From assembly GCF_022808865.1 (NCBI RefSeq), contig NZ_JAKZLB010000002.1, positions 448,019 to 512,018 on the forward strand: a stretch of 64,000 nt of DNA, read 5' to 3'. Of the stretch, positions 26,826-59,776 are shown one piece after another; position 1 is the stretch's first letter, and the number at the start of each line of letters is the position of its first letter. Both the position numbers and the translations under genes were made by a program. A model generated the notes under the pieces. That model searched no databases, was not told where the DNA came from, and worked only from the letters and a program-made list of their open reading frames with translations. Source of the stretch: Geothrix oryzisoli. GTDB lineage: Bacteria; Acidobacteriota; Holophagae; Holophagales; Holophagaceae.

Positions 26826-26827
26826 TC

Positions 26828-28025: not shown

Positions 28026-28606
28026 GGATGCGGACCGTCGCCATCACGGGCGCGGTGGCCTTCGGCGCCTCGCTCATGATCTTCGCCCTGAGCCTGGACA
28101 CGCGTCTGCTCGGGGACCAGAGCGGCTACAAGCCCGCCCAGCCCATCCCTTATTCGCATGCCCTCCACGCCGGTGAGCTGAAGATGGACTGTCTCTTCTG
28201 CCATACCTCGGCGGAGAACAGCCGCCACGCGGGCATCCCGCCCCTCAGCACCTGCATGAAGTGCCACGAGACCGTGCTGAACCGGGCCGGCACGCCCCTG
28301 GGCAAGTCGGACCCCAGCCCGGAGATCCAGAAGATGCGGGACGCCTACGCCAGCGGCCGGGGCTTCGAATGGGTCCGAATCCACCGCCTGCCCGCCCACG
28401 TCACCTTCCCCCACAGCCGCCATGTTCGGGCTGGCGTGGCCTGTCAGTCCTGCCACGGCGAAGTGCAGGGCATGGAGCGCGTGGAGCAGGCCATGGCCCT
28501 GACCATGGGTGAGTGCCTCGCCTGCCACCGCACCGAGAACCAGAAGCAGCTTTTGGCCGGTCGCCCACCCCAGGCTCCGACCGACTGCTCGGCCTGCCAT
28601 CACTGA
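28022..28606 (+). CDS. actA: Pentaheme cytochrome c, ActA-like subunit of alternative complex III
   Basis: 194 residues: an N-terminal membrane anchor (about residues 5-25) and a periplasmic domain with five heme sites, CLFCH, CMKCH, CQSCH, CLACH and CSACH. Five hemes is the number in ActA of characterised ACIII. The histidine-rich start PIPYSHALHAGELKMDCLFCH is typical of this family. Starts with GTG overlapping the narI stop; an ATG two codons later is an alternative. Likely passes electrons from ActB to ActE or to soluble cytochromes. Confidence 0.85.
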   Translation: MRMRTVAITGAVAFGASLMIFALSLDTRLLGDQSGYKPAQPIPYSHALHAGELKMDCLFCHTSAENSRHAGIPPLSTCMKCHETVLNRAGTPLGKSDPSPEIQKMRDAYASGRGFEWVRIHRLPAHVTFPHSRHVRAGVACQSCHGEVQGMERVEQAMALTMGECLACHRTENQKQLLAGRPPQAPTDCSACHH

Positions 28607-28615
28607 GGAGATCCC

Positions 28616-32918: not shown

Positions 32919-34089
32919 GCACCTCCATCGCAGCCGCTTCCGCGCCTCCTTCGCGGATCCGGAGCAGCTCCTCCACGCGGTGGCGCACCTGCGGGCCGCA
33001 GGGCACCGCGTGCTGGACGCCTACACGCCCTTCCCGGTGCATGGCATGGACGAGGCCATGGGCCTGCGGCCCTCGCGGCTGCCCCGGGCCTGCCTGGCTT
33101 TCGCCGCCCTGGGCCTGGCCCTCGCCGCGGGCCTCCAGATCTGGACCTCCGCCGTCGACTATCCCCTGATCACGGGCGGCAAGCCCCTCCTGGCCATCCC
33201 CGCCTTCATCCCCGTGGCCTTCGAGCTTACGGTGCTGCTGGCGGGTCTGGGCGTGGTGGCCAGCTTCTTCCTCGTGGCCCGCATGCGCCCCCGTCTCCAC
33301 ATCCCTGACCTCCACCCGGGGGCCAACGACGACCGCTTCATCCTCGCGGCGGAACTGGCCGCCGATGTCCAGTTCCCCGCCGTGGCCGGCGAGTTGGCGG
33401 CCCTGGGCGCCCTTGACGCCAGCCTGCTGGTGGAAGACCGCTTCCAGCGCCACGGATCCTTCTGGGACCGCCCTGCGGGCGTCGGCGCCCTGCTGTTGGC
33501 CTGCCTCCCGGCCTTCCTCCTCCTGCTTCTGGTGCCCCTGCTCAACCGGGACTTCCAGCGCCGGAACCTGGCCTGGGACGGCGGGATGGGCGCGCCCCTC
33601 TCGGCCCAGGCCTACGACGCCAGCGGCGTGCTGCCCGGTGGCAAGGTGCTGCAGGCGCCGCCCCCGGACACCCTATCGCGCCGCGGCGAGCCACCCCTGG
33701 CCTTCGGACCGGGCAAGGCCGAGGCGGAGCGCGCCGGCCGCGAGCTGCAGAACCCCTACCAGCCCACCCAGGCCCGCTTCAACCGCGGCAAGCTCGTCTT
33801 CGATCGGGTCTGCGCCACCTGCCACGGGCGAGAGGGCGACAACAACGGCAGCGTGATCGTCGCGCGGGGGGCCTTCGCGCCTACGCTGCTCGTCTCCCCC
33901 GTGGTGCGGGACATGCCGGACGGCCGCATCTTCCACGTCGCCACCTTCGGCGGCCCCACGAAGATGAAGGGCTACGGCGACCTCCTCAGCCGCGAGGACC
34001 GCTGGCAGGTGGTGCTCTACATCCGGGAGCTGCAGAAGGCCGCGAAGCCGATGGTCGCACCCGCCCAAGCCACGGGAGCCCAGCCATGA
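32905..34089 (+). CDS. ActD-ActE fusion: DUF3341 membrane protein with C-terminal mono-heme cytochrome c
   Basis: 394 residues in two parts. Residues 1-180 are ActD-like (DUF3341): [39 protein letters not shown] in two stretches, followed by two membrane helices (about 60-80 and 97-120). After a third helix (about 190-212), residues 285-385 form a cytochrome c domain with [15 protein letters not shown] and a possible distal Met in [13 protein letters not shown], resembling ActE. In most ACIII operons these are two genes. The fused heme domain should lie in the periplasm. Stop overlaps actF in ATGA. Confidence 0.85.
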
Positions 34090-35228
34090 GCGAGACCTTC
34101 ACCGTTCCCGCCCGCGACCTCACGAAATCCGGCATCCCCACCCTGGCCGACATCGGGGAGCGCCTCCGGGGCGGCGCCTGGGCCTTCGTGCTGCTCGGCG
34201 CCGGATTGCTGGGCCTGGGCCTCGTGCTCCAGGCGGAGCGGGGCTGGGGCAACCTGCTGCTCACGGCGTTCAACCTGGCCTGCGTGGGCCTGGGGGGCCT
34301 CTTCCTCCTGGCCATCCAGTCCATCACGGGGGCCCGCTGGAGCGATCCCATCCTCAAGGCCCACCGGGCCATGCCGGCCCTCCTGCCCGTGGCGGGCACC
34401 CTCATGCTGCTCCTGGCCTTCGGGGCCACCACCCTCTACCCCTGGGCCCGGCCGGACGCGGCCTCCCACGAGGCGCTGCAGGGCCGCCTGGGGTGGCTGA
34501 ATCCGCCCTTCTTCTTCGGCCGGGTGGCGCTCATCTTCGCAGCCTGGATCTGGACGGGGCGCCGGCTCACCCGCCAGGGCCAGGGCGCGGCCCCCTTCAT
34601 CCTGGTCTTCGGCCTCACCTTCTCCCTGGCCAACTTCGACTGGCTGATGTCGCTGGAGCCGGTGTGGTCCAGCACCATCCTGGCCATCTACGGGTTCTCG
34701 GGCATGTTCCTCCAGGGCATCGCCATCGTCACCTTCAGCGCCATCGTCCTGCGCCGCGTGGGCCTGCTCCCGGCGGTGTCGAAAGCCCAGAACCACGACC
34801 TGGGCAAGCTGCTGTTCGCCTTCAGCTGCTTCTGGGCCTACATCTTCCTCAGCCAGTTCCTGCTCATCTGGTACGCCAACCTGCCCGAAGAGACCGGCCC
34901 CATGCGCCTGCTGCTGCAGGGCCGCTGGATGCCCCTCTTCTACCTGAACCTGATCCTGAACTTCGGCGTGCCCTTCGTGCTGCTGCTCGGGCGGAAGGCC
35001 AAGACGAGCGAGACCGTGCTGCTGGCCACCTGCGCCATCCTCCTGGCGGGTCGCTGGCTCGACCTCTACCTCCAGATCATGCCGCCGGTCCTCCACGGCC
35101 TGCCCCCGGCCTTCGGACCCGCCGAGTTGGGCGGCATCCTCCTCCAGCTGGGCCTCGGCCACCTGGCCTGCTGGCCCGTCTTCATGAAGGACGCCAACCC
35201 GGCCCAGGAACTGCCCCAGGGAGGGTGA
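34086..35228 (+). CDS. actF: ActF-like membrane subunit of alternative complex III (NrfD family)
   Basis: 380 residues with about ten membrane helices. The segment SLANFDWLMSLEPVWSSTI (about residue 178) is a strong marker of ActF, and FSCFWAYIFLSQFLLIWYANLPEETG follows in two stretches. ActF is a second, shorter NrfD-like subunit thought to pair with ActC; its role in proton or quinone handling is not settled. It is the last gene of the nar-act run. No cox genes follow; the next genes are convergent. Confidence 0.9.
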   Translation: MSETFTVPARDLTKSGIPTLADIGERLRGGAWAFVLLGAGLLGLGLVLQAERGWGNLLLTAFNLACVGLGGLFLLAIQSITGARWSDPILKAHRAMPALLPVAGTLMLLLAFGATTLYPWARPDAASHEALQGRLGWLNPPFFFGRVALIFAAWIWTGRRLTRQGQGAAPFILVFGLTFSLANFDWLMSLEPVWSSTILAIYGFSGMFLQGIAIVTFSAIVLRRVGLLPAVSKAQNHDLGKLLFAFSCFWAYIFLSQFLLIWYANLPEETGPMRLLLQGRWMPLFYLNLILNFGVPFVLLLGRKAKTSETVLLATCAILLAGRWLDLYLQIMPPVLHGLPPAFGPAELGGILLQLGLGHLACWPVFMKDANPAQELPQGG

Positions 35229-46552: not shown

Positions 46553-47935
46553 ATGAAGCCACGAATCCAAGTGGTCCTGCTTGCCACACTGATGTCAGCC
46601 ACGGCCTGGGGCCAGGAGGTGAGCCTGTACGGCACCACCATGGCCCAGATGTGGAAGCAGGAGACACCGGGCTTTGACAAGAGCACCTTCACCCCGGCCA
46701 CCCAGTACCTCGGCATCGATGCCACCAAGCTGGGCACCGACAACCTCTCCCTGCACCTCTTCGGCTGGGGCCGGACCGACCTGAGCGACGCCAGCAATTT
46801 CGATGGCTCGAAGTCCGGCGGCTACCTGAACTACGGCTACCTGCAGTACCGCTTCGACCAGGCCAATGCCGAGATCAAGGCGGGCCGCTTCACGACCAAC
46901 CAGGCCACCGGCTTCGAACAGGTCGATGGCGTCAGCGTCCGGACGGACCTGCGCGGCGGCTTCTCCTTCTCAGCCTTCGGCGGGAAGCCGGTCTACTACA
47001 AGACGGTGGATCCCCGGAACCAGGCGGACTACGACTTCCAGCGGGACTTCATCTTCGGCACCCGGTTCGCCTGGCGCATGCCCAAGGTCGGCGAGATCGG
47101 CGTCTCCTACCTCCAGGACGGCACCAAGGCGGCGAAGGATCTCGACATCCCCTCTCCCATCGACTACACGCGGAAGCAGCTGGGCGTGGACGTCCGGATC
47201 ACCCCCGCCACCGTCTTCGACCTCCGCGGCCGGACCGTCTTCGACGTGGCCAGCCACCCGGATCAGGCGCCCGGCGCCCCCGAGCGGTCCCGCATCGCCG
47301 AGCATGACTACACCGCCACCGTGAAGCTCGGCGAGCAGGTCACCATGACCGGCAACTATGCGGAACGGAACTTCTACGCCTTCTTCGCCGGCACGAACCT
47401 CCCGTCCCTCTTCCGCCAGGACGAGAACGACATGTTCCGCGGCTTCGGGGGAAGCATCACCTGGAACGCCCCCACGGGCGTGCAGCTGGTGGGCGACTAC
47501 CGCCACATGCACCGCGAGGCCTTCGGCGATGTGAACCGGGCCGGTGGCGAGATCCGCTGGGCCACCAGCGAGCGGACCTTCCTCGCCGGCGTCGGCGCCC
47601 ACTGGGTGAATGCCGGGAACACCAAGTTCGTCGATCCCGCGACTCCGTACCGCAGCCTGAGCCACATGGAGAGCCGCCTGTGGGCCATGGTCACCCGGGG
47701 CAAGCTCACCGCGAGCCTGGATGGCATCCTCCAGAGGTACGAGGAGAACAATCCCTACCTCGTCGGGATCCGGAACGTCTATGAGGTGGTGGGCTCGCTC
47801 GGATACCAGGCCACCACGAACGTGAAGGTGTCCGGAGATATCAGCTACGGCAGCACCCCGGTCGCGAAGCACGAGACCCGGGGGCTCCTGCGGGCCGAGT
47901 ATCGGTTCGGCTTTGCTAAGAAGGGAGGTCGCTAA
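46553..47935 (+). CDS. Outer-membrane beta-barrel protein of a porin-cytochrome locus
   Basis: 460 residues with a Sec signal (KPRIQVVLLATLMSATAWGQ) and a mature part built of alternating hydrophobic and polar strands rich in Tyr, Gly and Arg, ending AEYRFGFAKKGGR. This is the pattern of a 16- to 20-strand outer-membrane barrel. It is much shorter than MtrB-type porins (about 650-700 residues) and has no CXXC. The start at 46553 has GAGG upstream. Its stop overlaps the next gene, a pentaheme cytochrome (TAATG), so the two are made together. It may form the outer-membrane sheath of an electron conduit, or be a simple porin. Confidence 0.75.
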   Translation: MKPRIQVVLLATLMSATAWGQEVSLYGTTMAQMWKQETPGFDKSTFTPATQYLGIDATKLGTDNLSLHLFGWGRTDLSDASNFDGSKSGGYLNYGYLQYRFDQANAEIKAGRFTTNQATGFEQVDGVSVRTDLRGGFSFSAFGGKPVYYKTVDPRNQADYDFQRDFIFGTRFAWRMPKVGEIGVSYLQDGTKAAKDLDIPSPIDYTRKQLGVDVRITPATVFDLRGRTVFDVASHPDQAPGAPERSRIAEHDYTATVKLGEQVTMTGNYAERNFYAFFAGTNLPSLFRQDENDMFRGFGGSITWNAPTGVQLVGDYRHMHREAFGDVNRAGGEIRWATSERTFLAGVGAHWVNAGNTKFVDPATPYRSLSHMESRLWAMVTRGKLTASLDGILQRYEENNPYLVGIRNVYEVVGSLGYQATTNVKVSGDISYGSTPVAKHETRGLLRAEYRFGFAKKGGR

Positions 47936-48408
47936 TGGCCCGGAAGTCCATTTTCCAGATCATCGGCATCGCGCTGGGCCTTGGCGTCCTGATGGCGTGC
48001 AGTCTCATCTCGCCCGAGGCGAGCTTCGCGGCGACCCACCCCCAGGAACTGGGCGCGGGCCGGCCCATCTGCTCCGAGTGCCACAGCAACGACGTGGCCA
48101 AGGGCGCCCTCAAGCCGTACGCCTCCTTCGACCACACGCCCACCTTCGTGAAGGATCACCGCTTCCAGGCCAACCAGGACTCCAACACCTGCGCCGCCTG
48201 CCACGCCCAGTCCTTCTGCGCGGACTGCCACGGCGGCAAGGTCCCCATGAAGCCCGCCACCCGCCTCAGCGATCGGCCCGATCGGGAGTCGCCGCACCGG
48301 GGTGACTTCATGACCCAGCACCGCATCGAAGGAAAGATGGATCCGTCCAGCTGCTACGCCTGCCACGGCCGGGCCAACAACGAGAAGTGCGCGGCTTGCC
48401 ACCGGTAG
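47935..48408 (+). CDS. Periplasmic pentaheme c-type cytochrome
   Basis: 157 residues. The signal segment FQIIGIALGLGVLMACSL could be a lipoprotein signal (LMAC lipobox) or be cleaved later after SFA. Five heme sites are present: CSECH, CAACH, CADCH, CYACH and CAACH, with extra histidines nearby (HTPTFVKDHRF, TQHRIEG) suggesting bis-His ligation. It is translated from the ATG that overlaps the barrel stop. Probably takes electrons across the periplasm or fills the barrel, in the way MtrA does, though it is half the size. Confidence 0.88.
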   Translation: MARKSIFQIIGIALGLGVLMACSLISPEASFAATHPQELGAGRPICSECHSNDVAKGALKPYASFDHTPTFVKDHRFQANQDSNTCAACHAQSFCADCHGGKVPMKPATRLSDRPDRESPHRGDFMTQHRIEGKMDPSSCYACHGRANNEKCAACHR

Positions 48409-48437
48409 GAACTGAACACGTGTCCAAGGGGAACACC

Positions 48438-49094
48438 ATGAGCCGAATTAAGTTGATGGTAGGAAGCTGTTTCGCGATGGTCCTCGCGCTTCTTGCCTGG
48501 GGATGCGCCGGAACCGCCGGGAAGGGGGCTCCGTTCAATGCCACCACCGGGCAGCACCCGACGAACTGGATCCAGGTCCACTACATCGATTACGTCAAGG
48601 CGCCCGACCAGTGCCGCACCTGCCACGGATCGACCTCCGATCCCGCCGCGGCCGGCGGCATCTCCAAGGTGAGTTGCTTCAGCTGCCACACCAGCGGCGT
48701 GGACCACCCCGCGGGCTGGGCCGACGCCAGCCAGCACGGCCGCATGGGCGCCCAGGCCGTCCCGGCCAGCACCCAGCTGATCGGCGGCACGGTGGTCGAC
48801 GGCTCCGGCTTCGCCTACTGCACCAAGTGCCATGGGGCGAACTACACCGATGGCATCGCCGTGTCCTGCAAGTCCTGCCACACCAAGGCGCCGCACCCCG
48901 ACGCCCCCTGGCGCGGCGCCACCTTCACCTCGCCCAGCCACGTCAACACGAACAGCGGGAACGCTCCCGCCTGCGCCCAGTGCCACACCAACGGGGCGAA
49001 CTCCTCCCTCAAGCCCGTGACCCCGGCCCCCGCCGGAACCGCGCCTGGCTGCTTCAACAACACCCTGTGCCACGGCACGAGCTTCCCTGGTTAG
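48438..49094 (+). CDS. Lipoprotein multiheme c-type cytochrome (five CXXCH plus one CX5CH)
   Basis: 218 residues. The N-terminus is a lipoprotein signal, LALLAWGCAGTAGK, with Cys at about residue 24. Canonical heme sites are CRTCH, CFSCH, CTKCH, CKSCH and CAQCH. The C-terminus has GCFNNTLCHG, a C-x5-C-H motif that could bind a sixth heme non-canonically. The start at 48438 has AAGGGG upstream. It lies 29 bases after the pentaheme gene and 85 bases before the first decaheme gene, so all four are probably one transcript. Confidence 0.87.
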   Translation: MSRIKLMVGSCFAMVLALLAWGCAGTAGKGAPFNATTGQHPTNWIQVHYIDYVKAPDQCRTCHGSTSDPAAAGGISKVSCFSCHTSGVDHPAGWADASQHGRMGAQAVPASTQLIGGTVVDGSGFAYCTKCHGANYTDGIAVSCKSCHTKAPHPDAPWRGATFTSPSHVNTNSGNAPACAQCHTNGANSSLKPVTPAPAGTAPGCFNNTLCHGTSFPG

Positions 49095-49179: not shown

Positions 49180-51840
49180 ATGCAACACCGACCTCTGAAA
49201 CAGCTCTGCGGCCTCATCGCCACCGCAGCCGTCGCCCTGGTGCTGATCGGCTGTAACGGCAAGACGGGCCCCGCCGGTGCGAACGGCACCAACGGTACCA
49301 ACGGTACCAATGGCACCAACGGCACCAACGGTACCAACGCGGTCATCACTGTGAACGCTGCCCAGCTCACCCCCGACCAGTGGGGCCAGATGAGCCTGAA
49401 CGGCACCGTGACCAGCGTGACCATGGGCACCAAGCCCGTCGTCAACTTCACCGTCACCGACAGCAAGGGAACCCCCGTCAGCGGCCTTGGCTTCACCACC
49501 AAGACCTCGACCAACATCGTCCCCAGCTACCCCAACTTCGCCTTCAGCATCGCGAAGCTGGTGCCCGCCGGCACCGATGGCAGCCCCAGCAAGTGGGTGA
49601 ACTACATCGTCACCACGATGCCCAGCACCACCACCGCCGCGGCGCCCTCCAAGCCCAGCACCGACAACACGGGCACCCTGGTCGACAACGGCGACGGCTC
49701 CTACAAGTACACCTTCTACCGTGACATCACGGCGGCCCAGGCCTTCCTGGATGGCTACACCTACACGGGCAACAACCTCCGCGCCGACCTCGGCGACGTG
49801 AGCTACCAGCCCACCTTGACCCACCGCGTCAGCATCCAGATCGGCGGCAACGCCCGCGGCACCAGCACCAACACGCCCGACGGCTCCAACACCGGCATCA
49901 CCGGCGTGCCCATCCTGAACCCCGCCAACATCACCTACGATTTCGTCCCTGCCACCGGTGCCGCTCCGGCCGCCACGGCGCAGCGCAACATCGTGGACAT
50001 GACGTCCTGCAACACCTGCCACACCCGCCTGGTGGTCCACGGCGGCAACCGTGTCGATCCCCGCTACTGCGTGGTCTGCCACACCGACCAGCGCAAGTAC
50101 GGCAACCCCGAAGCCACCACCACGGCCACGGGCTACACCGGCAACACCTACAAGATCAACGGCCTGGGCGTCGCCGACTTCCCGGCCTTCATCCACCGCC
50201 TCCACGCGGGTGAGTTCCTCCAGAAGACCGGCTACCTCTACGCCGGGATCGCCTTCAACGAGACCACCTACCCGCAGGACCTGCGCAACTGCAGCAAGTG
50301 CCACACCGCTTCCATCGCCGCCACCCCCCAGGGTGATGCCTGGAAGACCAACCCCAGCCGCATGGCCTGTGGCGCCTGCCACGACGGCATCGACTGGGTG
50401 GCCGGCACCAACCACGCTGGCGGCCCCCAGACCAGCGACCTGAACTGCACCGGCTGCCACGGCGCCTCGCAGATGCAGGTCATCCACACCCCGATGCTCG
50501 CGCCCAACCCGGGCTACGTCGCCGGCAGCCACACCAACGGCTCCTACATCGCCGACTACAAGAGCATCCTGCCCGCCGGCGCCCACCAGATCACCTATGA
50601 TCTGAAGAGCGTCACCCTGACCGCGACCGGCCAGCCGGTCCTCACCTTCCGCTTCCTGCAGGACGGCACCGCGGTGGCCTTCAACGCCGCCCCCGCCGCC
50701 GCCGACGCCACCGCCGAGCTGATGCCCGGCTACATCGGCAGCCCCAACGCCTATGTCGCCTTCGGCGTACTCCAGGACGGCATTGCCGCTCCCGCCGACT
50801 GGAACGCCACCCTCAGCGCCACCATCCGGAACGTCTGGAACAAGACCGTCACGTCCGCGACCATGACCGGCCCCGACGCGAACGGCTACTACGCCCTGAC
50901 CTTCGCGGCCTCCGTCCCGGCAGGCGCCACCCAGATCACGGCTGGCATCGGCTACAACTACAGCTACGGCAATCCTCCGCTCACCCAGATCGACCTGCCC
51001 GCCTTCCCGTACTCCGGGGGCATCACCGGCACCGGCGGTCTGAGCGTGCCCGCGCCCAACGTGGCCAAGCTCGTCAGCGGCACCCTGCCCACCGGCTTCG
51101 CGGCCCAGACGGCCCGCCGCTCCATCGTCAGCAATCAGAAGTGCAACGACTGCCACGCCGTCCTTGGCGTGTTCACCGACAAGACCTACCACGCCGGTGA
51201 GCGCAACGACGCCCCGACCTGCACCTTCTGCCACAACGTCAACCGCGTCAACAGCGGCTGGGGCGTGAACATCAAGGATGCGATCCACTCCATCCACGCC
51301 GCCGACAAGCGGGTGAACAAGTTCTCGTGGGAAGTCTCCGCGGGCGACACCTACTGGAATGTCACCTACCCGGCCATCCTGAACAACTGCGAAGCCTGCC
51401 ACGTGCCCGGCTCGTACGACTTCAGCAACAGCACCAACGCGGCCGCCATTCCCAACCTGCTTTGGACCACCGTCGCCACCGGCACGACCCCGACCCCCGT
51501 CAATGCCATCGTGACGGGCAACGAGACCGTTCCCGGCGTCTACTGGTCGCCCTTCACGGCCGCCTACGGTTCCGCTTACGCCTTCGGCAGCGGCTTCGGC
51601 TACAACGGCACGACCCAGGCGATCACCCAGGCCGCTTCCACCACCCTGGTGAACAGCCCGATCACCTCTGCCTGCTCCAACTGCCACGACACCCCGGCTG
51701 CCATCGCCCACTTCAAGGGCAACGGCGGTGCGTTCTACGAGGCTCGCGCCACCGCGCTCCTCAAGGTCGAGCAGTGCATGGTCTGCCACGGCTCCGGCCG
51801 CACGGCTGACATCAAGGCCGTCCACATGAACTTCAAGTAA
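49180..51840 (+). CDS. OmcA/MtrC-family decaheme outer-membrane cytochrome, paralogue 1
   Basis: 886 residues. A lipoprotein signal (ALVLIGC) is followed by GKT-GPA-GAN and six GTN triplets, a collagen-like Gly-x-y segment. Ten CXXCH sites follow in two clusters of five: CNTCH, CVVCH, CSKCH, CGACH, CTGCH, then CNDCH, CTFCH, CEACH, CSNCH and CMVCH. Beta-rich domains before each cluster fit the OmcA/MtrC fold. Predicted cell-surface reductase of metals or other extracellular acceptors. ATG has AAGGAG upstream. Its N-terminal half is closest to paralogue 3 and its C-terminal half to paralogue 2. Confidence 0.92.
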   Translation: MQHRPLKQLCGLIATAAVALVLIGCNGKTGPAGANGTNGTNGTNGTNGTNGTNAVITVNAAQLTPDQWGQMSLNGTVTSVTMGTKPVVNFTVTDSKGTPVSGLGFTTKTSTNIVPSYPNFAFSIAKLVPAGTDGSPSKWVNYIVTTMPSTTTAAAPSKPSTDNTGTLVDNGDGSYKYTFYRDITAAQAFLDGYTYTGNNLRADLGDVSYQPTLTHRVSIQIGGNARGTSTNTPDGSNTGITGVPILNPANITYDFVPATGAAPAATAQRNIVDMTSCNTCHTRLVVHGGNRVDPRYCVVCHTDQRKYGNPEATTTATGYTGNTYKINGLGVADFPAFIHRLHAGEFLQKTGYLYAGIAFNETTYPQDLRNCSKCHTASIAATPQGDAWKTNPSRMACGACHDGIDWVAGTNHAGGPQTSDLNCTGCHGASQMQVIHTPMLAPNPGYVAGSHTNGSYIADYKSILPAGAHQITYDLKSVTLTATGQPVLTFRFLQDGTAVAFNAAPAAADATAELMPGYIGSPNAYVAFGVLQDGIAAPADWNATLSATIRNVWNKTVTSATMTGPDANGYYALTFAASVPAGATQITAGIGYNYSYGNPPLTQIDLPAFPYSGGITGTGGLSVPAPNVAKLVSGTLPTGFAAQTARRSIVSNQKCNDCHAVLGVFTDKTYHAGERNDAPTCTFCHNVNRVNSGWGVNIKDAIHSIHAADKRVNKFSWEVSAGDTYWNVTYPAILNNCEACHVPGSYDFSNSTNAAAIPNLLWTTVATGTTPTPVNAIVTGNETVPGVYWSPFTAAYGSAYAFGSGFGYNGTTQAITQAASTTLVNSPITSACSNCHDTPAAIAHFKGNGGAFYEARATALLKVEQCMVCHGSGRTADIKAVHMNFK
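49282..49335 (+). repeat. Six 9-bp units encoding Asn-Gly-Thr (collagen-like stalk, paralogue 1)
   Basis: Units of AAYGGYACC in frame, directly after the lipid-modified Cys region. The unit number is the same in all three decaheme genes although the synonymous bases differ. Confidence 0.9.
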
Positions 51841-51847
51841 TGTCCCC

Positions 51848-51877
51848 CGCCAGGGCGCGGTTCGCCGCGCCCTGGCG
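51848..51877 (+). terminator. First hairpin after decaheme paralogue 1
   Basis: A 13-bp perfect stem, CGCCAGGGCGCGG and its complement around TTCG, lies seven bases after the stop. It has no U-run and may protect or punctuate the mRNA. A near-identical hairpin follows paralogue 2. Confidence 0.6.
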
Positions 51878-51896
51878 ACCAGCAACCGCCACGACC

Positions 51897-51936
51897 GAGA
51901 GGACCCGGATGCCTTCCAGCGCCGGGTCCTCTTTCT
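51897..51936 (+). terminator. Rho-independent terminator after decaheme paralogue 1
   Basis: AGAGGACCCGG pairs with CCGGGTCCTCT around a 13-base loop, then TTTC. The same loop sequence recurs after paralogue 2. Confidence 0.7.
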
Positions 51937-52017
51937 GATGCACCCACCAGGACATGGGCCGATTGACAATCCAGCCGCCCCGGCCGGAAAATCGGCGGTC
52001 CGCCTCATGAGGTCCCC

Positions 52018-52416
52018 ATGAAGAACCCCCTGATGAACCTTGCACTGGCCGCTTCCACCCTCCTGGCCCCGGCGTTCCCGGCCCGGGCCCAGGAAGAGGC
52101 CGCGGCGCCCCGGAAGGCCGAGTCCCAGGCCGCCAAGGCCGCCAAGGCCAAGAGCGGGGCCGCCAAGGTCAAAGAGCGGGCCAAGGCGAAGGCCGCGGCC
52201 GACGCCAAGGCCGTCGATATCAACAGCGCCACCAAGGAGCAGTTGAAGAAGCTGCCGGGCATCACGGACGCCTACGCCGACAAGATCATCGCCGGCCGTC
52301 CCTACCTCTCCAAGGCCTTCCTGGTGACGAAGAACATCCTGCCCAACGACCTCTTCCAGACCCTGCGGAAGCAGATCGTGGCCCGGCAGCCCGCGCCGAA
52401 ACCCCAGGCCCGGTAG
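52018..52416 (+). CDS. Exported helix-hairpin-helix (ComEA-like) protein
   Basis: 132 residues with a Sec signal (ALAASTLLAPAFPARAQ), then a Lys/Ala-rich low-complexity linker (about 30-65), then a helix-hairpin-helix domain: VDINSATKEQLKKLPGITDAYADKII in two stretches. This matches the ComEA family, which binds DNA at the cell surface or periplasm. It lies alone between two decaheme genes, with terminators on both sides, so a role in electron transfer is not implied. DNA uptake or nucleoid-external DNA binding are possibilities. Confidence 0.8.
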   Translation: MKNPLMNLALAASTLLAPAFPARAQEEAAAPRKAESQAAKAAKAKSGAAKVKERAKAKAAADAKAVDINSATKEQLKKLPGITDAYADKIIAGRPYLSKAFLVTKNILPNDLFQTLRKQIVARQPAPKPQAR

Positions 52417-52435
52417 AAGACCACCGCACCCTCGC

Positions 52436-52465
52436 AGAAGCCCCCGGGAACGGGGGCTTCTGTTG
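52436..52465 (+). terminator. Rho-independent terminator after the helix-hairpin-helix gene
   Basis: An 11-bp perfect stem AGAAGCCCCCG / CGGGGGCTTCT with loop GGAA, followed by a T-containing tail. Confidence 0.75.
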
Positions 52466-52505
52466 TACGGACGCCAAGGTCCTTTGTGTTGAAGGCTTTC
52501 CGGAA

Positions 52506-52570
52506 TGTCACGGGTTCCGTGACACAGGTCACAAGGGCGGTTGACTCGTTAGATTACCGGAAGATCATCA
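52506..52570 (+). promoter_or_regulatory. Repeated promoter module, copy A (decaheme paralogue 2)
   Basis: CRP-type box CGTGA-CACAGG-TCACA at 52518-52533, then seven bases, then TTGACT at 52541 and ATTACCGG, ATCATCATTG downstream. A second dyad, TGTCACGG-GTT-CCGTGACA (52506-52524), overlaps the box here only. Leads into decaheme paralogue 2 with a leader of about 95 bases. Confidence 0.75.
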
Positions 52571-52664
52571 TTGGCGAAATCATGCGGAGGCCGTGCTCCT
52601 TGAAGGTCGATGCTTCCTTATCGCCTGAAGGCCGGCAGTCCAAGTCCCCAAAGGAGGATGAACC

Positions 52665-55367
52665 ATGCACCATCGACCTTTGAAACAGCTCTGCGGCCTC
52701 GTGGCAGGCGCCGCCGTCATCCTGATGCTGGTCGCCTGCGACGGCAAGACGGGCGCGGCCGGAGCCAACGGGACGAACGGCACCAATGGCACGAACGGCA
52801 CCAACGGCACGAACGGCACCAATGCCGTCATCACCGTGAATGCCGCCCAGCTGACCAGCGACCAGTGGGCCCAGCTGACCCTCAAGGGCGCGGTCAACAG
52901 CGTCACCATGGGCGGCGCGCCCGTCGTGACCTTCACCCTCACTGACGGCGTGGGCACGCCGGTGAGCGGCCTCGCCGCCAAGTCGGCGAGCGGGAACTAC
53001 GCCAACTTCGCCTTCGCGATCTCCAAGCTGGTGCCAGGGACCAACGGCAGCCCCAGCCGCTGGGTCTGCTACAACGTGGTGACCACCCCGGCCGCGGGCC
53101 AGGCGGCCGTGCCCGGCTTCACCGAGCCCGAGAACAACGGCACCCTGAAGGACAACCTCGACGGCACCTACACCTACACCTTCGCCCTGGACCTCACCAA
53201 GGCCAAGGGCTACGTGGACGGGGCCACCTACGACGCCAGCCACCTCAAGTCCGATCTCGACGACCTGACCTATGATCCGACCCTGACCCACCGCTTGATG
53301 GTGGCCGTGGGCGGGAACCAGCCCGGCACCACCACCCAGCTGCTCACCTCCGCGAACCTCTACTACGACTTCATTCCCACCACCGGGAAGCCCGTCGTGG
53401 CCACCGATACGGAGCGGGTGATCGTGGATACCGCCTCCTGCAACACCTGCCACACCAAGCTGTCCATGCACGCCGACTTCTTCCCGGCCATCAACGACAC
53501 CCACCTGTGCGTGGTGTGCCACACGGATCAGCTGAAGTACGCCAGCGGCGATTCCCTGCCTGCCTCCGGCAACGTCCTGCTGGCCAACGGCGTCTACGGC
53601 AGCACCCAGAAGCTCCAGGGCATGGCCCTGGCCAACTTCCCCAACATGGTCCACCACATCCACACGGGTGAGCTCCTCTACTACCAGGGCTACAACCAGT
53701 TCCTGCCCTACAACGAAGTCACCTACCCGCAGGATCTGCGGAACTGCACGAAGTGCCACACCCAGTCGGCCAGCGCCCCCCAGGGCGACAACTGGAAGGC
53801 CGTGCCGAGCCGCCTCGCCTGCGGCGGATGCCACGATTCCATCGTTTGGATCAGCGGCGCGAACCACGCGGGCGGCGCCCAGATCAGCGACAAGGACTGC
53901 ACCAGCTGCCACGGGGCCTCGCAGATGCAGGTCATCCATACGCCCGTGGTGGCGCCCAACGCCAGCAACGGCTGGCTGGTCTCCGGCGGCAACAACAACA
54001 CCAACGCCTCCTACGTGGCCGGCTACACCGGCATCCTGCCCAACGGCGCCCACCTCGTGACCTGGGATCTCAAGTCCGTCAGCCTGAACGCCAGCAGCCA
54101 GCCGGTCTTCGTCTTCCGGTTCCTGGAAGACGGCCTCCGGAAGGACTTCAAGACGTTCGTGGACACCACCACCACGCCGGAATTCTGGGACAACTACGTG
54201 GGCGGACCGAGCGTCTACCTGGCCTTCTCCGTGCCCCAGGACGGCATCGCGGCCCCGGCCGACTGGAACGCCACGGTCAGCACCTACGTCAAAAACCTCT
54301 GGCGGGGAGACGGCAAGGACCAGTACGGGAACACCCTCGCGGCCACCCAGGCCGGAACGCTCAGTGGACCCGACACCAATGGCTACTACACCCTGACCAT
54401 GACGGGCGTGGCCATCCCCGCCACCGCCACCAATCTCACGGGCGGCATCGGCTACACCTACGGCCTGAGCTCCACCCAGCCCCTGACCCAGATCAACGTG
54501 GCGGGCTACGCCTACTCGCCCCTGCAGGTGACCTTCAACACGACCACCAGCAAGTGGGTCCAGGTGTTGGGGACCGGCCAGGGCGGCGTGAGCGTCCCGG
54601 CGCCCAACGTCATCAAGGTGATGAGCGGTAGCGCGGCCCGCCGCGCCATTGTCAGCAACCAGAAGTGCAACGACTGCCACGCCACGCTGGGCATCTTCAC
54701 CGAGAAGGTGTACCACGCGGGCCAGCGCAACGACGCGCCGACCTGCACCTTCTGCCACAACGTGAACCGCGTGAACGCCGGCTGGGGCGTGAACATCAAG
54801 GACGCGGTGCATGCCATCCACGCCGCCGGCAAGCGGGCCAACAAGTACTCGTGGGAAGTCTCCGCGGGCGACTACTACTGGGAGGTCACCTACCCGGCCA
54901 TCCTGAACAACTGCGAAGCTTGCCATGTGCCCGGCTCCTACGATTTCAGGAACAGCGCCAGCCAGGCGGCCCTGCCCAACCTGCTGTGGACGACCGTCGC
55001 CACCGGCACCACGCCTGCGACGATCAACTACGTGAAGGGTGACGGCACGGATGTGCTTCCGGGCACCTACTACTCGCCGTTCGTGACGGCCGGCACCGCC
55101 TACGGCTCCGGTTTCGCGACCAACTTCGCGACCGGCAGCGCCACGCCGTACGCCGACGCGGCCTCGACCACCCTGGTGAGCTCGCCGATCACCGCGGCCT
55201 GCTCCAACTGTCACGACTCCGCCGCGGGGATCGCCCACTTCCAGGGCAACGGCGGCGCGTTCTACGAGCCCCGCGCCACGGCGCTTCTCAAGGTCGAACA
55301 GTGCCTGGTCTGCCATGGCCCCGGCCGTACGGCGGACATCAAGACCGTCCACATGACGTTCAAGTAA
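52665..55367 (+). CDS. OmcA/MtrC-family decaheme outer-membrane cytochrome, paralogue 2
   Basis: 900 residues. Lipoprotein signal VILMLVAC, then GKT-GAA-GAN and six GTN triplets. Ten heme sites: CNTCH, CVVCH, CTKCH, CGGCH, CTSCH, CNDCH, CTFCH, CEACH, CSNCH and CLVCH. The second heme cluster region (from QKCNDCHA to NNCEACHVPGSYDF) is nearly identical to paralogue 1; the first beta domain is more different. Start has AAAGGAGG. It has its own promoter module with a CRP-type box, so it can be regulated apart from paralogue 1. Predicted cell-surface electron-transfer protein. Confidence 0.92.
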   Translation: MHHRPLKQLCGLVAGAAVILMLVACDGKTGAAGANGTNGTNGTNGTNGTNGTNAVITVNAAQLTSDQWAQLTLKGAVNSVTMGGAPVVTFTLTDGVGTPVSGLAAKSASGNYANFAFAISKLVPGTNGSPSRWVCYNVVTTPAAGQAAVPGFTEPENNGTLKDNLDGTYTYTFALDLTKAKGYVDGATYDASHLKSDLDDLTYDPTLTHRLMVAVGGNQPGTTTQLLTSANLYYDFIPTTGKPVVATDTERVIVDTASCNTCHTKLSMHADFFPAINDTHLCVVCHTDQLKYASGDSLPASGNVLLANGVYGSTQKLQGMALANFPNMVHHIHTGELLYYQGYNQFLPYNEVTYPQDLRNCTKCHTQSASAPQGDNWKAVPSRLACGGCHDSIVWISGANHAGGAQISDKDCTSCHGASQMQVIHTPVVAPNASNGWLVSGGNNNTNASYVAGYTGILPNGAHLVTWDLKSVSLNASSQPVFVFRFLEDGLRKDFKTFVDTTTTPEFWDNYVGGPSVYLAFSVPQDGIAAPADWNATVSTYVKNLWRGDGKDQYGNTLAATQAGTLSGPDTNGYYTLTMTGVAIPATATNLTGGIGYTYGLSSTQPLTQINVAGYAYSPLQVTFNTTTSKWVQVLGTGQGGVSVPAPNVIKVMSGSAARRAIVSNQKCNDCHATLGIFTEKVYHAGQRNDAPTCTFCHNVNRVNAGWGVNIKDAVHAIHAAGKRANKYSWEVSAGDYYWEVTYPAILNNCEACHVPGSYDFRNSASQAALPNLLWTTVATGTTPATINYVKGDGTDVLPGTYYSPFVTAGTAYGSGFATNFATGSATPYADAASTTLVSSPITAACSNCHDSAAGIAHFQGNGGAFYEPRATALLKVEQCLVCHGPGRTADIKTVHMTFK
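52767..52820 (+). repeat. Six 9-bp units encoding Asn-Gly-Thr (collagen-like stalk, paralogue 2)
   Basis: Same unit number and position as in paralogues 1 and 3, with a different mix of GGG, GGC, ACG and ACC codons. Confidence 0.9.
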
Positions 55368-55373
55368 GGTTTC

Positions 55374-55403
55374 CGCCAGGGCGCGGCTCGCTGCGCCCTG
55401 GCG
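55374..55403 (+). terminator. First hairpin after decaheme paralogue 2
   Basis: CGCCAGGGCGCGG-CTCG-CTGCGCCCTGGCG, a near copy of the hairpin at 51848 in the same place after the stop. Confidence 0.6.
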
Positions 55404-55420
55404 GCCTTTCACGCCCCCAG

Positions 55421-55462
55421 ACGAGGATCCGGATGCCTTCCAGCGCCGGGTCCTCGTTCGGT
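55421..55462 (+). terminator. Second hairpin after decaheme paralogue 2
   Basis: ACGAGGATCCGG pairs with CCGGGTCCTCGT with one mismatch, loop ATGCCTTCCAGCG identical to that at 51909. The gap from here to 55597 shows no recognisable feature. Confidence 0.65.
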
Positions 55463-55597
55463 TCTGCCGCGCGGATTGCCCGGCGGAACGACCGTGCAGT
55501 TTCCAGGATGAAGGAGACTTTTTGAGGCGATTTCGAGATGGGAAATGATTCGCAACATCAAAAAGACATGGTGGGTTTTTACAATTTATGACCAGTA

Positions 55598-55660
55598 GGT
55601 GACAAACGTCACAAGGGTGGTTGACTCATTAAATTACCGATAGATCATCATTGACGAATC
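55598..55660 (+). promoter_or_regulatory. Repeated promoter module, copy B (decaheme paralogue 3)
   Basis: CRP-type box GGTGA-CAAACG-TCACA at 55598-55613, seven bases, TTGACT at 55621, then TAAATTACCG and GATCATCATTG. Nearly identical to copies A and C. The leader to the cytochrome start is about 160 bases and includes a GGAGGTGCGTGTGCTT segment resembling the start of the Rrf2 gene at 58645. Confidence 0.75.
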
Positions 55661-55814
55661 CCCGATGGAACTCTCCTCCCGGGAGGTGCGTGTGCTTTCA
55701 ATGTCACGGGTCACCGCTCGTTCTGGATCCCGCGCGCAGCCACGTTTCCCCCGGACCCCAGGCGAGTCCCCTACCCCCACCCCCAAGCTTGACTCTCCAG
55801 AAGGAGAACGAAGC

Positions 55815-58394
55815 ATGCAACACCGACCCTTGAAACAACTCTGCGGCGCCCTCGCCGCAGCCGCCGTGCTGCTGGCCCTGGTGGCCTGCGACGGGAAGAC
55901 CGGCCCCGCGGGCGCGAACGGGACCAACGGCACGAACGGAACCAACGGCACCAACGGGACCAACGGCACCAACGCCACCCCCAAGGTCGACCTGGCGAAG
56001 CTGTCGACGGACCAGTGGGCCGCCCTCCAGCCCACGGGCACGATCACTTCAGTCACCATGGGCGCCGCCCCGGTCGTGAACTTCAAGCTCACCGACGCCG
56101 CCGGAACCCCCATCGTGGGCCTCGGCGCCTTCACGTCGAAGAGCTCCACCGCCGTGGCCGCCAGCTATCCCAACCTGGCCTTCGCCATCGCGAAGCTGGT
56201 GCCCGAGGACGCCACCACCAAGGCTCCCAGCAAGTGGGTCAGCTACATCGTGACGAGCACCCCGACCACCACCGCCGCCGCGGCCCCCACCCGGCCCACG
56301 ACCGACAACACCGGCACCCTGGTGGACAACGGCGACGGCACCTACAAGTACACCTTCTACCGTGACATCACCAAGGTCCAGGCGGCCCTGGACGCGGCGA
56401 CCTACACGGCCCCCAGCGTCAAGACCGACCTGGGTGACGCGACCTACGCGCCCGCGCTCGTGCATCGCATCGCCCTGCAGTTCTCGGGCAATGCGCGCGG
56501 CACCGGCAGCAACACGGCCGATGGCACGACGCTCGTCCCGGGCGTGGCCATGGCGAACCCCATCAACGTGATCTACGACTTCGTGCCCGCCACCGGCGCC
56601 CCCGTGGCCGCCGGCACGGACATCCGCGACGTCGTCTCCATCAACCGCTGCAACGAGTGCCACGACAAGCTGGCCTTCCACGGCGGCGGCCGCGTCGAGA
56701 CCCGCTACTGCGTGGTCTGCCACACGGACCAGCGCAAGTTCGGCCGCGCCGAGGCCACGACCACAGCCACCGGCTTCTCCGGTAGCACCTACAAGGTCAA
56801 CGGCCTGGCCGCTGGCGACTTCCCGACCATGGTGCACCAGATCCACCAGGGCAAGGAGCTGACGAAGACCGGCTACAACTACGCGAACGTGCTCTACAAC
56901 AACATCGGCTACTCGATCCTCGATGGCGGCCAGAAGATGTGCCTGAAGTGCCACTCGAATGTCCCGCAGTCGACCAACTGGAACACCAAGCCCACCCGCC
57001 TCGCCTGCGGCTCCTGCCACGACGCGGTGGACTTCGCCACGGGCGTGAACCACATGCCGGGCAACAATGTCCCCCAGACGGACGACAAGGCCTGCACCAT
57101 CTGCCATGACTCCACGGCCATCACGACCTACCACATGGCCAACAACGTGACGCCCAACAACCCGGCGATCCCCGCCGGCCTCAAGAACGTCACCTACGAG
57201 ATCAAGTCGGCTGACGCCACCTCCACCGCCGTGACCGTCGTCTTCAAGATCAAGGTCGACGGCACCGCCGCCACCTTCAAGGCCCCCGCGGCCAGCATGG
57301 CGGATCCCCTGGACGGCTTCACGGGCGGACCCAGCTTCCTGCTCGCATACGCCCAGCCCCAGGACGGCGTGGCCGCCCCCGCCGACTACAACAACCTCGG
57401 CAGCGGCTCGTCCAATTTCCAGCCGATCAGCGTCTCCATCGCCAACCTGCTGGATACCGGCAAGACCACCAGCGTCGGCACCCTGAGCGGCCCGGACGCC
57501 AACGGCTACTACACCGCCAACATCGTCGGTGCGACCAAGATCTTCCCCGCCGGCGCCAAGCTGCGCTCGGTGTCCCTGCAGGGCTACTTCACCCAGATCA
57601 TCAGCACCGGTAATGTCGCCCGCCACGCCATCGCGGTCATCAAGACCGTGACCGGCGATGCCGCCCGCCGCACCGTCATCGATTCCGCCAAGTGCGCCAA
57701 GTGCCACGAGTGGTTCGAAGGCCACGGCGGCAACCGCGTCTATGAAGTCCAGGTCTGCGTCCAGTGCCACGTGCCGGGCCTGACCACCAGCGGCCGCGGC
57801 ATCTCGGACACCGCCATCCAGGCTTATGCCTTCACGGCTTCCGACCAGGCCATCCTGACCGCCTGGCAGTTCGACAAGACCCTGCCGAACGCCGCCCTGG
57901 CGCTTCCCCAGGTGACGAACAACTTCAAGGACATGATCCACGGCCTCCACGCCGGGAAGGATCGCACCACGTCCATCAAGATCGCCCGCGACCGGACGCC
58001 TTCCGCGATCAACCTGATCGACGGCGCCAACATCGGCTTCCCGGGCATCCTGAACCACTGCCAGAGCTGCCATACCCCCACCGGCTACAGCGGTGTGCCC
58101 GCCAACACCCTGGCCTCCCGCCAGGAAGCGGACAATGGCGTGTTCCTCAACGGCACCAACCGGACCCCGGCGGACGCCAAGGCCGCGCTCGCGACCCTCA
58201 ATGCCAGTGACCTGTTGACCACGCCGTTCACGGCCGCCTGCGTCAGCTGCCACGACAGCGCGATCGCCAAGGCCCACATGAACCAGCAGGGCGGGCAGGT
58301 CCTGACGCCCCGCAGCGCGCTCAACGTCGCCGCGGAATCCTGCGGCACCTGCCACGGCGCGGGCACCGCCTTCGACCCCGTCAAGGTGCACTAG
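55815..58394 (+). CDS. OmcA/MtrC-family decaheme outer-membrane cytochrome, paralogue 3
   Basis: 859 residues from the ATG with AAGGAG upstream; the open frame continues 50 codons further upstream, but that part overlaps the promoter leader and lacks a signal peptide. Lipoprotein signal VLLALVAC, then GKT-GPA-GAN and six GTN triplets. Ten heme sites: CNECH, CVVCH, CLKCH, CGSCH, CTICH, CAKCH, CVQCH, CQSCH, CVSCH and CGTCH. The N-terminal half is close to paralogue 1; the second heme region (AKCHEWFEGHGGNRVYEVQV) is quite different and suggests other surface partners. Followed by a strong terminator. Confidence 0.92.
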   Translation: MQHRPLKQLCGALAAAAVLLALVACDGKTGPAGANGTNGTNGTNGTNGTNGTNATPKVDLAKLSTDQWAALQPTGTITSVTMGAAPVVNFKLTDAAGTPIVGLGAFTSKSSTAVAASYPNLAFAIAKLVPEDATTKAPSKWVSYIVTSTPTTTAAAAPTRPTTDNTGTLVDNGDGTYKYTFYRDITKVQAALDAATYTAPSVKTDLGDATYAPALVHRIALQFSGNARGTGSNTADGTTLVPGVAMANPINVIYDFVPATGAPVAAGTDIRDVVSINRCNECHDKLAFHGGGRVETRYCVVCHTDQRKFGRAEATTTATGFSGSTYKVNGLAAGDFPTMVHQIHQGKELTKTGYNYANVLYNNIGYSILDGGQKMCLKCHSNVPQSTNWNTKPTRLACGSCHDAVDFATGVNHMPGNNVPQTDDKACTICHDSTAITTYHMANNVTPNNPAIPAGLKNVTYEIKSADATSTAVTVVFKIKVDGTAATFKAPAASMADPLDGFTGGPSFLLAYAQPQDGVAAPADYNNLGSGSSNFQPISVSIANLLDTGKTTSVGTLSGPDANGYYTANIVGATKIFPAGAKLRSVSLQGYFTQIISTGNVARHAIAVIKTVTGDAARRTVIDSAKCAKCHEWFEGHGGNRVYEVQVCVQCHVPGLTTSGRGISDTAIQAYAFTASDQAILTAWQFDKTLPNAALALPQVTNNFKDMIHGLHAGKDRTTSIKIARDRTPSAINLIDGANIGFPGILNHCQSCHTPTGYSGVPANTLASRQEADNGVFLNGTNRTPADAKAALATLNASDLLTTPFTAACVSCHDSAIAKAHMNQQGGQVLTPRSALNVAAESCGTCHGAGTAFDPVKVH
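55917..55970 (+). repeat. Six 9-bp units encoding Asn-Gly-Thr (collagen-like stalk, paralogue 3)
   Basis: Six in-frame units, same number as the other two decaheme genes, with GGA, GGC and GGG codons mixed. Confidence 0.9.
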
Positions 58395-58549: not shown

Positions 58550-58605
58550 GGTGACGCAGATCACAAGGGTGGTTGACTCGTTAGATTACCGGATGATCCT
58601 CATTG
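58550..58605 (+). promoter_or_regulatory. Repeated promoter module, copy C (third Rrf2 gene)
   Basis: CRP-type box GGTGA-CGCAGA-TCACA at 58550-58565, seven bases, TTGACT at 58573, then TAGATTACCGG and GATCCTCATTG. Drives an Rrf2-family gene, whereas copies A and B drive decaheme cytochromes. Confidence 0.75.
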
Positions 58606-58644
58606 AAGAGGCTCCGCAAAAACCCCGTTCTCATGGAGGTGCCC

Positions 58645-59091
58645 GTGCTTCCCCTTTCACAGACGACCGGTTATGCGCTGCGCGCCATGCGCTGCCTCCA
58701 GGAGCCCGGCGGGCAGCCGGTCCTGGTGGAGTCCGTGGCGGACTACACGGGAATCCCCCGCTCCTACCTCTCCAAGCTCGTCCACAAGCTGGCCAAGAAG
58801 GGGCTGGTCACGGCCCGGAGGGGACACCATGGCGGCGTCGTCCTGGCCAAGCCGGCGACGGAGATCACCCTGGAGGACCTGTCGGAGGCCATCGACGGGG
58901 TGTCCTGGCGGAAGCGCTGCCTGGTGGGGCTGGCGGGCTGCTCCGAAGAGACGCCCTGCGTCCTCCACGAATACTGGAAGGACACCCTGGCTGAGATCCT
59001 GGTCCGGCTGCGTTCGGTCACCCTGGCCGACATGGCCCGGCACCATGACCCCGGGGTGGAGCGGTTCCGCGCGGACCACGGCCTGGCCTGA
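58645..59091 (+). CDS. Rrf2-family iron-sulfur transcriptional regulator (cytochrome-linked)
   Basis: 148 residues from a GTG that has GGAGG five bases upstream; an ATG at 58633 is an alternative but overlaps that ribosome site. Rrf2 winged helix: LPLSQTTGYALRAMRCL, YTGIPRSYLSKLVHKLAKKG and ARRGHHGGVVLAKP. Cluster cysteines RCLVGLAGCSEETPCVL, spaced C-x6-C-x5-C. It shares its promoter module with two decaheme cytochrome genes, so it is made under the same condition and may feed back on them. The start LPLSQ is shared with the convergent Rrf2 gene. Confidence 0.87.
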   Translation: MLPLSQTTGYALRAMRCLQEPGGQPVLVESVADYTGIPRSYLSKLVHKLAKKGLVTARRGHHGGVVLAKPATEITLEDLSEAIDGVSWRKRCLVGLAGCSEETPCVLHEYWKDTLAEILVRLRSVTLADMARHHDPGVERFRADHGLA

Positions 59092-59155: not shown

Positions 59156-59701
59156 CTAGGCCTTCTTGGCGGGGGCCTTTGCGGCGGGCCTGCGGGTGGG
59201 GACCTTCGCGCCGGCGGCCGGCTTGGCGGCCTTCTTGGGCCGGGGCTTGAGCTTCTTTTCGGGCAGGGCATCGGCCAGGCGCCAGGTGCGGCTCTGCTGC
59301 TCGAAGGTGCGGATCTCCTCCAGGGAGATGTCCTTCAGGCAGCGGTGGATGTGGTCGCGCTCGGACTTCCAGAAGGTGTGGGCGGGGCAGGCCCGCTCGT
59401 CGCTGCACTCCTTGAAGCCCAGCAGGCACTGGTTCCGCCACTCGGCGCCGTCGACGGCCTCGGCGATGAGGTCGAGGGTGATCTCCTTGGCGGCCAGGGC
59501 CAGCACCACGCCGCCCTTGTTGCCGCGCTTGGCCATCACGAGGCCCACCTTGGCGAGCTTGTGGATCATCTTGGAGAGGTAGGGGCGGGGGAAGCCCGTG
59601 CGGGCGGCCACATCGACCACCAGCGTCGGCTTTCCGCCCGGATCCTCGAGGCAGCTCATGGCCAGGACTGCATAACCGGAGGATTGGGACAGTGGGAGCA
59701 T
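59156..59701 (-). CDS. Rrf2-family iron-sulfur transcriptional regulator with basic tail
   Basis: 181 residues from the ATG at 59701 (AGGTGA upstream; a GTG two codons earlier is an alternative). Rrf2 winged helix: LPLSQSSGYAVLAMSCL, TGFPRPYLSKMIHKLAKVG and AKRGNKGGVVLALA. Cluster cysteines QCLLGFKECSDERACPA, spaced C-x6-C-x5-C. About 35 extra C-terminal residues are Lys/Ala/Pro-rich (KPRPKKAAKPAAGAK), histone-tail-like, and absent from the other three Rrf2 proteins here. A perfect CRP-type box lies 76-91 bases upstream. Confidence 0.86.
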   Translation of the reverse strand: MLPLSQSSGYAVLAMSCLEDPGGKPTLVVDVAARTGFPRPYLSKMIHKLAKVGLVMAKRGNKGGVVLALAAKEITLDLIAEAVDGAEWRNQCLLGFKECSDERACPAHTFWKSERDHIHRCLKDISLEEIRTFEQQSRTWRLADALPEKKLKPRPKKAAKPAAGAKVPTRRPAAKAPAKKA

Positions 59702-59776
59702 GGTCACCTACGCAGGAATGGAAGATGATTCGATCCTGAATGATAGACGATGTTCAGGTCAATCACATCCAAAGAG

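Follow-up and report, generated by a model that had tools for sequence, protein, structure and literature searches.

Gene organization of the locus

The window analyzed here, a stretch of 64,000 nucleotides from Geothrix oryzisoli, a bacterium of soils and sediments (Holophagaceae, Acidobacteriota), contains a gene cluster that begins with an outer-membrane beta-barrel, a pentaheme c-type cytochrome and a multiheme lipoprotein and continues with an array of OmcA/MtrC-family decaheme cytochromes (Table 1). Our comparative analyses make it probable that this locus serves extracellular electron transfer as a porin-cytochrome conduit of the ExtBC type, and it is most likely through this gene set that respiratory electrons cross the outer membrane and reach iron minerals or electrodes. 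Its relatives include a system by which Geobacter produces current, and its surface proteins are of the Shewanella type. A sequence-only reading of the same DNA had described a 460-residue barrel whose gene overlaps (TAATG) that of the pentaheme, followed by a multiheme lipoprotein and a decaheme protein, and the open reading frames, the CXXCH counts and the OmcA/MtrC model TIGR03507 (cut-off, 209 bits) all agree with that arrangement. The stop codon TAA of the barrel and the ATG of the pentaheme have one base in common, and an alternative in-frame ATG at 46541 would give a barrel of 464 residues.

Table 1. Features of the conduit locus and its surroundings (coordinates are those of the window; aa, amino acids; E, expectation value)
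Feature	Coordinates	Strand	Details
Outer-membrane beta-barrel, ExtB/OmbB superfamily	46553..47935	+	460 aa with signal peptide, 22 strands predicted
Pentaheme c-type cytochrome, predicted outer-membrane lipoprotein, ExtC-like	47935..48408	+	157 aa, 5 CXXCH
Multiheme lipoprotein (third gene), position held by ExtD	48438..49094	+	218 aa, 5 CXXCH + 1 CX5CH
OmcA/MtrC-family decaheme cytochrome 1	49180..51840	+	TIGR03507 481.5 bits; PF22113
Secreted ComEA-like helix-hairpin-helix protein	52018..52416	+	PF12836 E 3.2e-9
OmcA/MtrC-family decaheme cytochrome 2	52665..55367	+	TIGR03507 425 bits
OmcA/MtrC-family decaheme cytochrome 3	55665..58394	+	TIGR03507 449 bits
Rrf2-family regulator, array end	58603..59091	+	PF02082 E 2.8e-30
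Second Rrf2-family regulator	59156..59707	-	PF02082 E 2.7e-22

The lipobox cysteine of the pentaheme (Cys22) is invariant in 65 of 65 unique homologues, and all 54 rows of the alignment share Cys22, the five CXXCH motifs and His35, 67, 75, 121 and 129; with as many lone invariant histidines as heme motifs, the protein probably carries five bis-His hemes. On the strength of its conserved lipobox it is predicted to be a lipoprotein of the ExtC/ExtF kind, these two being pentaheme outer-membrane lipoproteins (PMC6148476; here and below, cited publications are represented by excerpts). The earlier description of this cytochrome as periplasmic therefore had to be revised, and setting it against half of MtrA is misleading for a predicted lipoprotein of the ExtC/ExtF kind.

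Relationship to the Ext and Omb conduits of Geobacterales

In the order of Geobacter argillaceus, 95 of 117 genomes matched the profile of the barrel. Twenty stretches from 10 of these 95 genomes were read, and three subfamily alignments, of 3, 9 and 4 barrels, were built. One subfamily (L194, L203 and L204) shows a 12-heme periplasmic cytochrome, a barrel, a 5-heme lipoprotein and a multiheme lipoprotein, which is the published extABCD layout; the 12-heme protein ends in PVKQ(R/S), like the PVRQR with which ExtA ends according to a primer string in the literature. A second subfamily (L196, L205, L206 and L210) has a barrel, an octaheme and a large lipoprotein in the ombB-omaB-omcB layout (PMC6344600). 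In the third, a barrel, a pentaheme and a small lipoprotein lie beside OmcA/MtrC decahemes, as confirmed with TIGR03507.

By hhalign, the Geothrix barrel is related to all three sets, with E values of 2.6e-39 for the extABCD-syntenic set, 4.2e-21 (99.4% probability) for the ombB-syntenic set and 3.4e-71 for the third subfamily. The pentaheme behaves likewise, with E values of 3.9e-41 for the ExtC-type proteins, 2.9e-21 (99.4%) for the first part of the octaheme and 7.7e-55 for the third subfamily, which became 9.5e-30, 1.3e-9 (96.4%) and 2.8e-38, respectively, once the heme motifs were masked. Since a tetraheme control still reached 81% unmasked, the masked values are the ones that count, and with masking the ActA-type pentaheme and tetraheme controls fell below 1%. 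By these measures the barrel is a member of the ExtB family and has an ExtC-like pentaheme lipoprotein beside it. The barrel and the small cytochrome thus appear to bridge the Ext and Omb/Oma types.

Searches against curated families were less informative. The barrel had no meaningful match in Pfam or NCBIfam, the latter holding no model that names extABCD-like or ombB-like proteins, and PDB sequence searches with the single sequence and with a profile gave no match at E values up to 10. The MtrB/PioB family (TIGR03509) was matched by 20 of 99 genomes of the phylum, and by none of this genome and the six other genus members drawn, while hhalign of the barrel against eight acidobacterial MtrB-family proteins returned a probability of 3.9%, that is, no profile similarity. 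The sequence-only reading had proposed a compact conduit unlike MtrCAB, and this part is upheld by both results. It had further suggested a distinct type of conduit, which we reject: the barrel and pentaheme are homologous to their extABCD-syntenic counterparts and, distantly, to the OmbB/OmaB type, the genes follow the ExtBCD layout, and relatives are already in print. The homology comparison with known conduit families that it had advised accordingly yielded Ext-type relatives, distant Omb/Oma relatives and no MtrB relative.

The AlphaFold2 (AF2) model of the barrel, based on 59 alignment rows, has a mean predicted local distance difference test score (pLDDT) of 80.4 and a predicted TM-score (pTM) of 0.72, with 22 strands of at least eight residues. 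Foldseek returned generic barrels at low TM-scores, with OprD/Occ-type porins and AlgE among the best rows, and the best rows of VIA-align were mostly TonB-dependent receptors, along with ushers and porins (PirA: Z 19.1, root-mean-square deviation 3.9 Å, 350 aligned residues). MtrB is not among the 50 best rows listed by either program, an absence that excludes nothing. By a simple formula for barrels, 22 strands would enclose a lumen of about 30 Å and 26 strands one of 37 Å.

Phylogenetic analysis points to an origin of the barrel in Geobacterales. In a tree of 75 rows, 40 Holophagaceae barrels form one clade (support 100/100), whose nearest relatives are Geobacter argillaceus (99/98) and then another Geobacter metagenome-assembled genome (MAG; 94/74). 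With the other subfamilies as outgroup, this clade nests among those barrels of its own subfamily that come from Geobacterales; the tree was drawn with a midpoint root, and its long branches were flagged. The simplest reading of these sequences would be one transfer from Geobacterales to an ancestor of Holophagaceae, and the ExtBC core of the locus was probably acquired in this way. A broader hypothesis, which we put forward tentatively and rate somewhat below even, is that ExtB-ExtC and OmbB-OmaB go back to one ancestral barrel of about 22 strands with a five-heme wire inside, that in ExtC-type members a lipid anchor holds this wire, which itself conducts across the membrane and needs no dedicated periplasmic ExtA, and that the Holophagaceae core came from Geobacterales and was re-capped with OmcA/MtrC decahemes.

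A fixed barrel-pentaheme pair with variable surface cytochromes

Protein and profile searches located the barrel in 27 of 347 Acidobacteriota genomes, all of one family, and the pentaheme in the same 27 genomes, plus two weak matches outside the family (E 3e-10 and 5.5e-9). The genome under study (3.23 Mb) has one of each, and a second genome of the genus (G166) encodes a barrel that is 95% identical. A scan of 84,980 species gave 76 barrel loci, 50 from Holophagaceae and 26 from Geobacterales, a grouping made by record titles and similarity; some MAGs are titled Deltaproteobacteria (e.g., L112, L115, L141 and L142). Among the loci with at least 480 bases after the barrel, the pentaheme lies directly downstream in 44 of 45 from Holophagaceae and 19 of 19 from Geobacterales. 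In the single miss (L093), its frame is intact and the start is masked by an unidentified base; one Geobacterales copy (L141) is frameshifted. The two genes overlap in most loci, and their pairing is far beyond chance.

The genes beyond this pair are different. Where at least 4.5 kb downstream was available, an OmcA/MtrC-like decaheme was near the barrel in 28 of 31 Holophagaceae loci versus 1 of 16 Geobacterales loci, and the surface cytochromes range from proteins with 5 to 30 heme motifs to OmcA/MtrC decahemes. As the pentaheme is constant beside the barrel while the third genes are replaced, the barrel and pentaheme can be regarded as fixed and the outer cytochromes as variable. In five loci (L055, L056, L121, L122 and L145), a divergent second barrel-pentaheme pair was observed, followed by a protein of 1121-1167 residues with 25 CXXCH and 5 longer motifs.

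The third gene had been called hexaheme-type, a count made up of five canonical CXXCH motifs and a sixth, atypical heme-like site, CX5CH (CFNNTLCH), kept in all 34 Holophagaceae homologues compared, mostly near the C-terminus. The protein has a conserved GC lipobox and an HPxxW start, and its similarity to the third genes of the Geobacterales clusters reaches masked hhalign probabilities of 97.5 to 98.8. Its replacements have 10 or 25+5 heme motifs in some Holophagaceae loci and up to about 20 in Geobacterales. A lipoprotein with 16 heme motifs (13 CXXCH and 3 longer) encoded elsewhere in this genome (L071:8140-11440; contig C3, 16-19 kb) had been entered as a control for this gene; it proved to be a relative (masked hhalign 98.9%) and was no longer counted among the controls. 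Its gene lies beside those of a DUF5777 barrel and a monoheme cytochrome, a neighborhood that may be a further surface redox locus.

Proposed route of electrons and alternative explanations

From the gene content, homology, conservation, co-occurrence and predicted barrel fold, we infer the following complex, pentaheme placement, direction of flow and substrates. The membrane-crossing core would consist of the 22-strand barrel and the lipid-anchored pentaheme, the latter most likely placed within the lumen, where its hemes would form a short wire. In TonB-dependent receptors, a barrel of 22 strands encloses a plug of about 150 residues; with a mature length of about 136 residues, the pentaheme could fit the barrel as a plug carrying hemes. 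Electrons of the quinol pool would reach it through small periplasmic cytochromes, with no dedicated ExtA. At the outer face, the 5+1-heme lipoprotein may accept them and pass them to one of the three OmcA/MtrC decahemes, which, as terminal reductases, would deliver them to Fe(III), humics or electrodes. In ExtBCD, the barrel, pentaheme and hexaheme are each required for electrode reduction, and extA is partly dispensable (PMC8357294).

Neither of the two situations that would have refuted the sequence-only reading, an ordinary porin or another complete conduit locus, was seen: searches of this genome yielded neither a further copy of the barrel or the pentaheme nor a porin of the MtrB type, and its three OmcA/MtrC matches all lie at this locus. 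ExtA had no match in 41 Holophagaceae genomes, by a search with a three-row profile at E 1e-5 that had no positive control. The genome encodes small four-heme cytochromes at other sites; a heme-motif scan covered all of contig C1 and contig C2 up to 497 kb, and contigs C3-C7 were covered through PF14522 and PF22113. Two adjoining genes on C1 (L069:7287-11378; 235-239 kb) each encode 11 CXXCH motifs and a cytochrome b561-type domain, and their products are candidate quinol oxidases feeding the conduit.

Several observations weigh against this interpretation. The extABCD and ombB-omaB-omcB labels of the Geobacterales clusters derive from gene order and heme counts, and for extABCD also from the C-terminus of the 12-heme protein, rather than from G. 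sulfurreducens sequences. In the G. sulfurreducens literature, ExtB is predicted with 18 strands, and Otero 2018 states that there is no homology among the components of the Ext and OmcB complexes, a statement that the bridging position of the Geothrix sequences would speak against for the barrel and the small cytochrome. ExtC has been drawn as extracellular (PMC8357294). With hemes masked, the third gene shows weak similarity to the extABCD-syntenic set (87%), though position and heme count agree with ExtD. Alone, the pentaheme gave an unusable AF2 model (54 rows; pLDDT 48.5, pTM 0.21), and no claim is made on its fold. Finally, in G040, a member of the genus, OmcA/MtrC gave two matches, of which one lies at a contig edge, and the barrel and pentaheme gave none.

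The best-surviving alternative keeps the conduit and changes its topology: the pentaheme would be surface-exposed, and a periplasmic cytochrome encoded elsewhere would enter the barrel. The published drawing of ExtC is in line with this arrangement, the lipobox is compatible with either leaflet, and the small four-heme cytochromes could provide the partner. Against it, homology links the pentaheme with the first part of the OmaB-type octahemes, in print the periplasmic part, so that the barrel-embedded place is favoured; moreover, no cytochrome other than this one is strictly linked to the barrel. We consider the surface-exposed arrangement unlikely, yet worth keeping in mind. It is more improbable still that the conduit runs inward, taking up electrons from Fe(II) or a partner cell. 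Conduits can be reversible. Holophaga and Geothrix may exchange electrons with cable bacteria (PMC11748539), but export accords with the OmcA/MtrC decahemes and with Fe(III) reduction as reported for G. fermentans (PMC5900883), and direction is beyond what sequence can tell. That the barrel is an ordinary solute porin beside cytochrome genes by chance, as the porins and AlgE among its Foldseek rows and its lack of a PDB sequence relative might suggest, is hardly credible and was rejected, given a pentaheme pairing fixed across two phyla, exact co-occurrence of the two proteins and homology to the barrels of extABCD- and ombB-like clusters.

The decaheme array and neighboring genes

The first decaheme has ten CXXCH motifs and a collagen-like linker C-terminal to its lipobox, and its PDB relatives are MtrF, the OmcA/MtrC family and UndA. 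The third probably starts at an internal ATG near 55815, judging from its likeness to the other two. In the relatives' loci (L032-L054), one to four OmcA/MtrC copies are present, and the tandem array (49180-58394) seems to expand and contract. The ComEA-like protein, with a domain of DNA-binding type within an electron-transfer locus, is kept in 20 of 23 of these loci. The Rrf2 protein at the array end is a possible regulator. Upstream and outside the conduit lies a large operon (20731-35228) of what we take, from the starts of the proteins, to be nitrate-reductase-like and ActA-like pentaheme genes, including 28022-28606.

Comparison with known conduits

Among known systems, ExtABCD of G. sulfurreducens is the closest, as the barrel, the pentaheme lipoprotein and the hexaheme-type lipoprotein occur in the same order and the first two are homologous to extABCD-syntenic genes. 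The Geothrix locus differs in having no counterpart to ExtA in the search described above, in a third gene of weak similarity, and in continuing with three OmcA/MtrC decahemes as surface caps. The clusters of Geobacter argillaceus, Pelotalea chapellei and Geomonas sp. Red32 share the same barrel, pentaheme and HPxxW lipoprotein, but their third gene is usually larger and OmcA/MtrC decahemes are rarely nearby (the 1 of 16 loci given above), though such decahemes do lie near a second Geobacterales barrel subfamily.

OmbB-OmaB-OmcB of Geobacter, represented by clusters named by gene order, is distantly homologous to the Geothrix locus in two components, the barrel and the pentaheme, the latter matching the first part of the octaheme. 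The locus has no octaheme OmaB or dodecaheme OmcB, but five hemes and a lipobox in place of eight hemes, a 5+1-heme protein and other surface cytochromes. With MtrCAB of Shewanella it shares the surface decahemes (three proteins, TIGR03507 425-481 bits), whereas its barrel falls outside the MtrB family, with 22 predicted strands versus 26 (PMC12133095). Where MtrCAB has the periplasmic decaheme MtrA, the barrel of this locus is paired with a protein that has five CXXCH motifs and bears a lipobox; this holds for the locus, an MtrA model not having been searched genome-wide. Membership in MtrCAB was therefore rejected, there being neither an MtrB/PioB barrel match nor a decaheme in the place of the pentaheme. 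For ExtHIJKL, with its rhodanese-like lipoprotein ExtH and its porin ExtI, the analysis covered the NCBIfam search, in which the barrel had no match.

Previous reports describe an ExtB/E-family porin-cytochrome complex in Holophaga S7 (PMC7399161), novel porin-cytochrome complexes, together with homologues of OmbB, in Trout Bog genomes of Geothrix (PMC6344600) and a cluster of G. fermentans related to OmcA/MtrC (PMC5900883). These are very likely the same kind of locus; the excerpts give no pentaheme lipobox, ExtC-OmaB link or anatomy of this locus. Holophaga has also been described as expressing ExtEFG homologues (PMC11748539). Likewise, among the open literature surveyed by titles and beginnings of abstracts, with subscription papers mostly outside its scope, none describes this anatomy or the ExtC-OmaB link.

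Taken together, the best reading is that the core is known, as a relative of ExtBC, and that the OmcA/MtrC caps and the missing ExtA match are the variant features. Fe(III)-reducing Acidobacteriota such as Geothrix thereby gain a concrete single-copy conduit with stated relatives, open to a test by one deletion. The pattern of conservation points to a minimal core of the barrel and a lipidated pentaheme, with the parts outside the membrane freely swapped. These relationships challenge the printed view that the Ext and Omc conduits are unrelated, and also that of ExtC as a purely extracellular protein.

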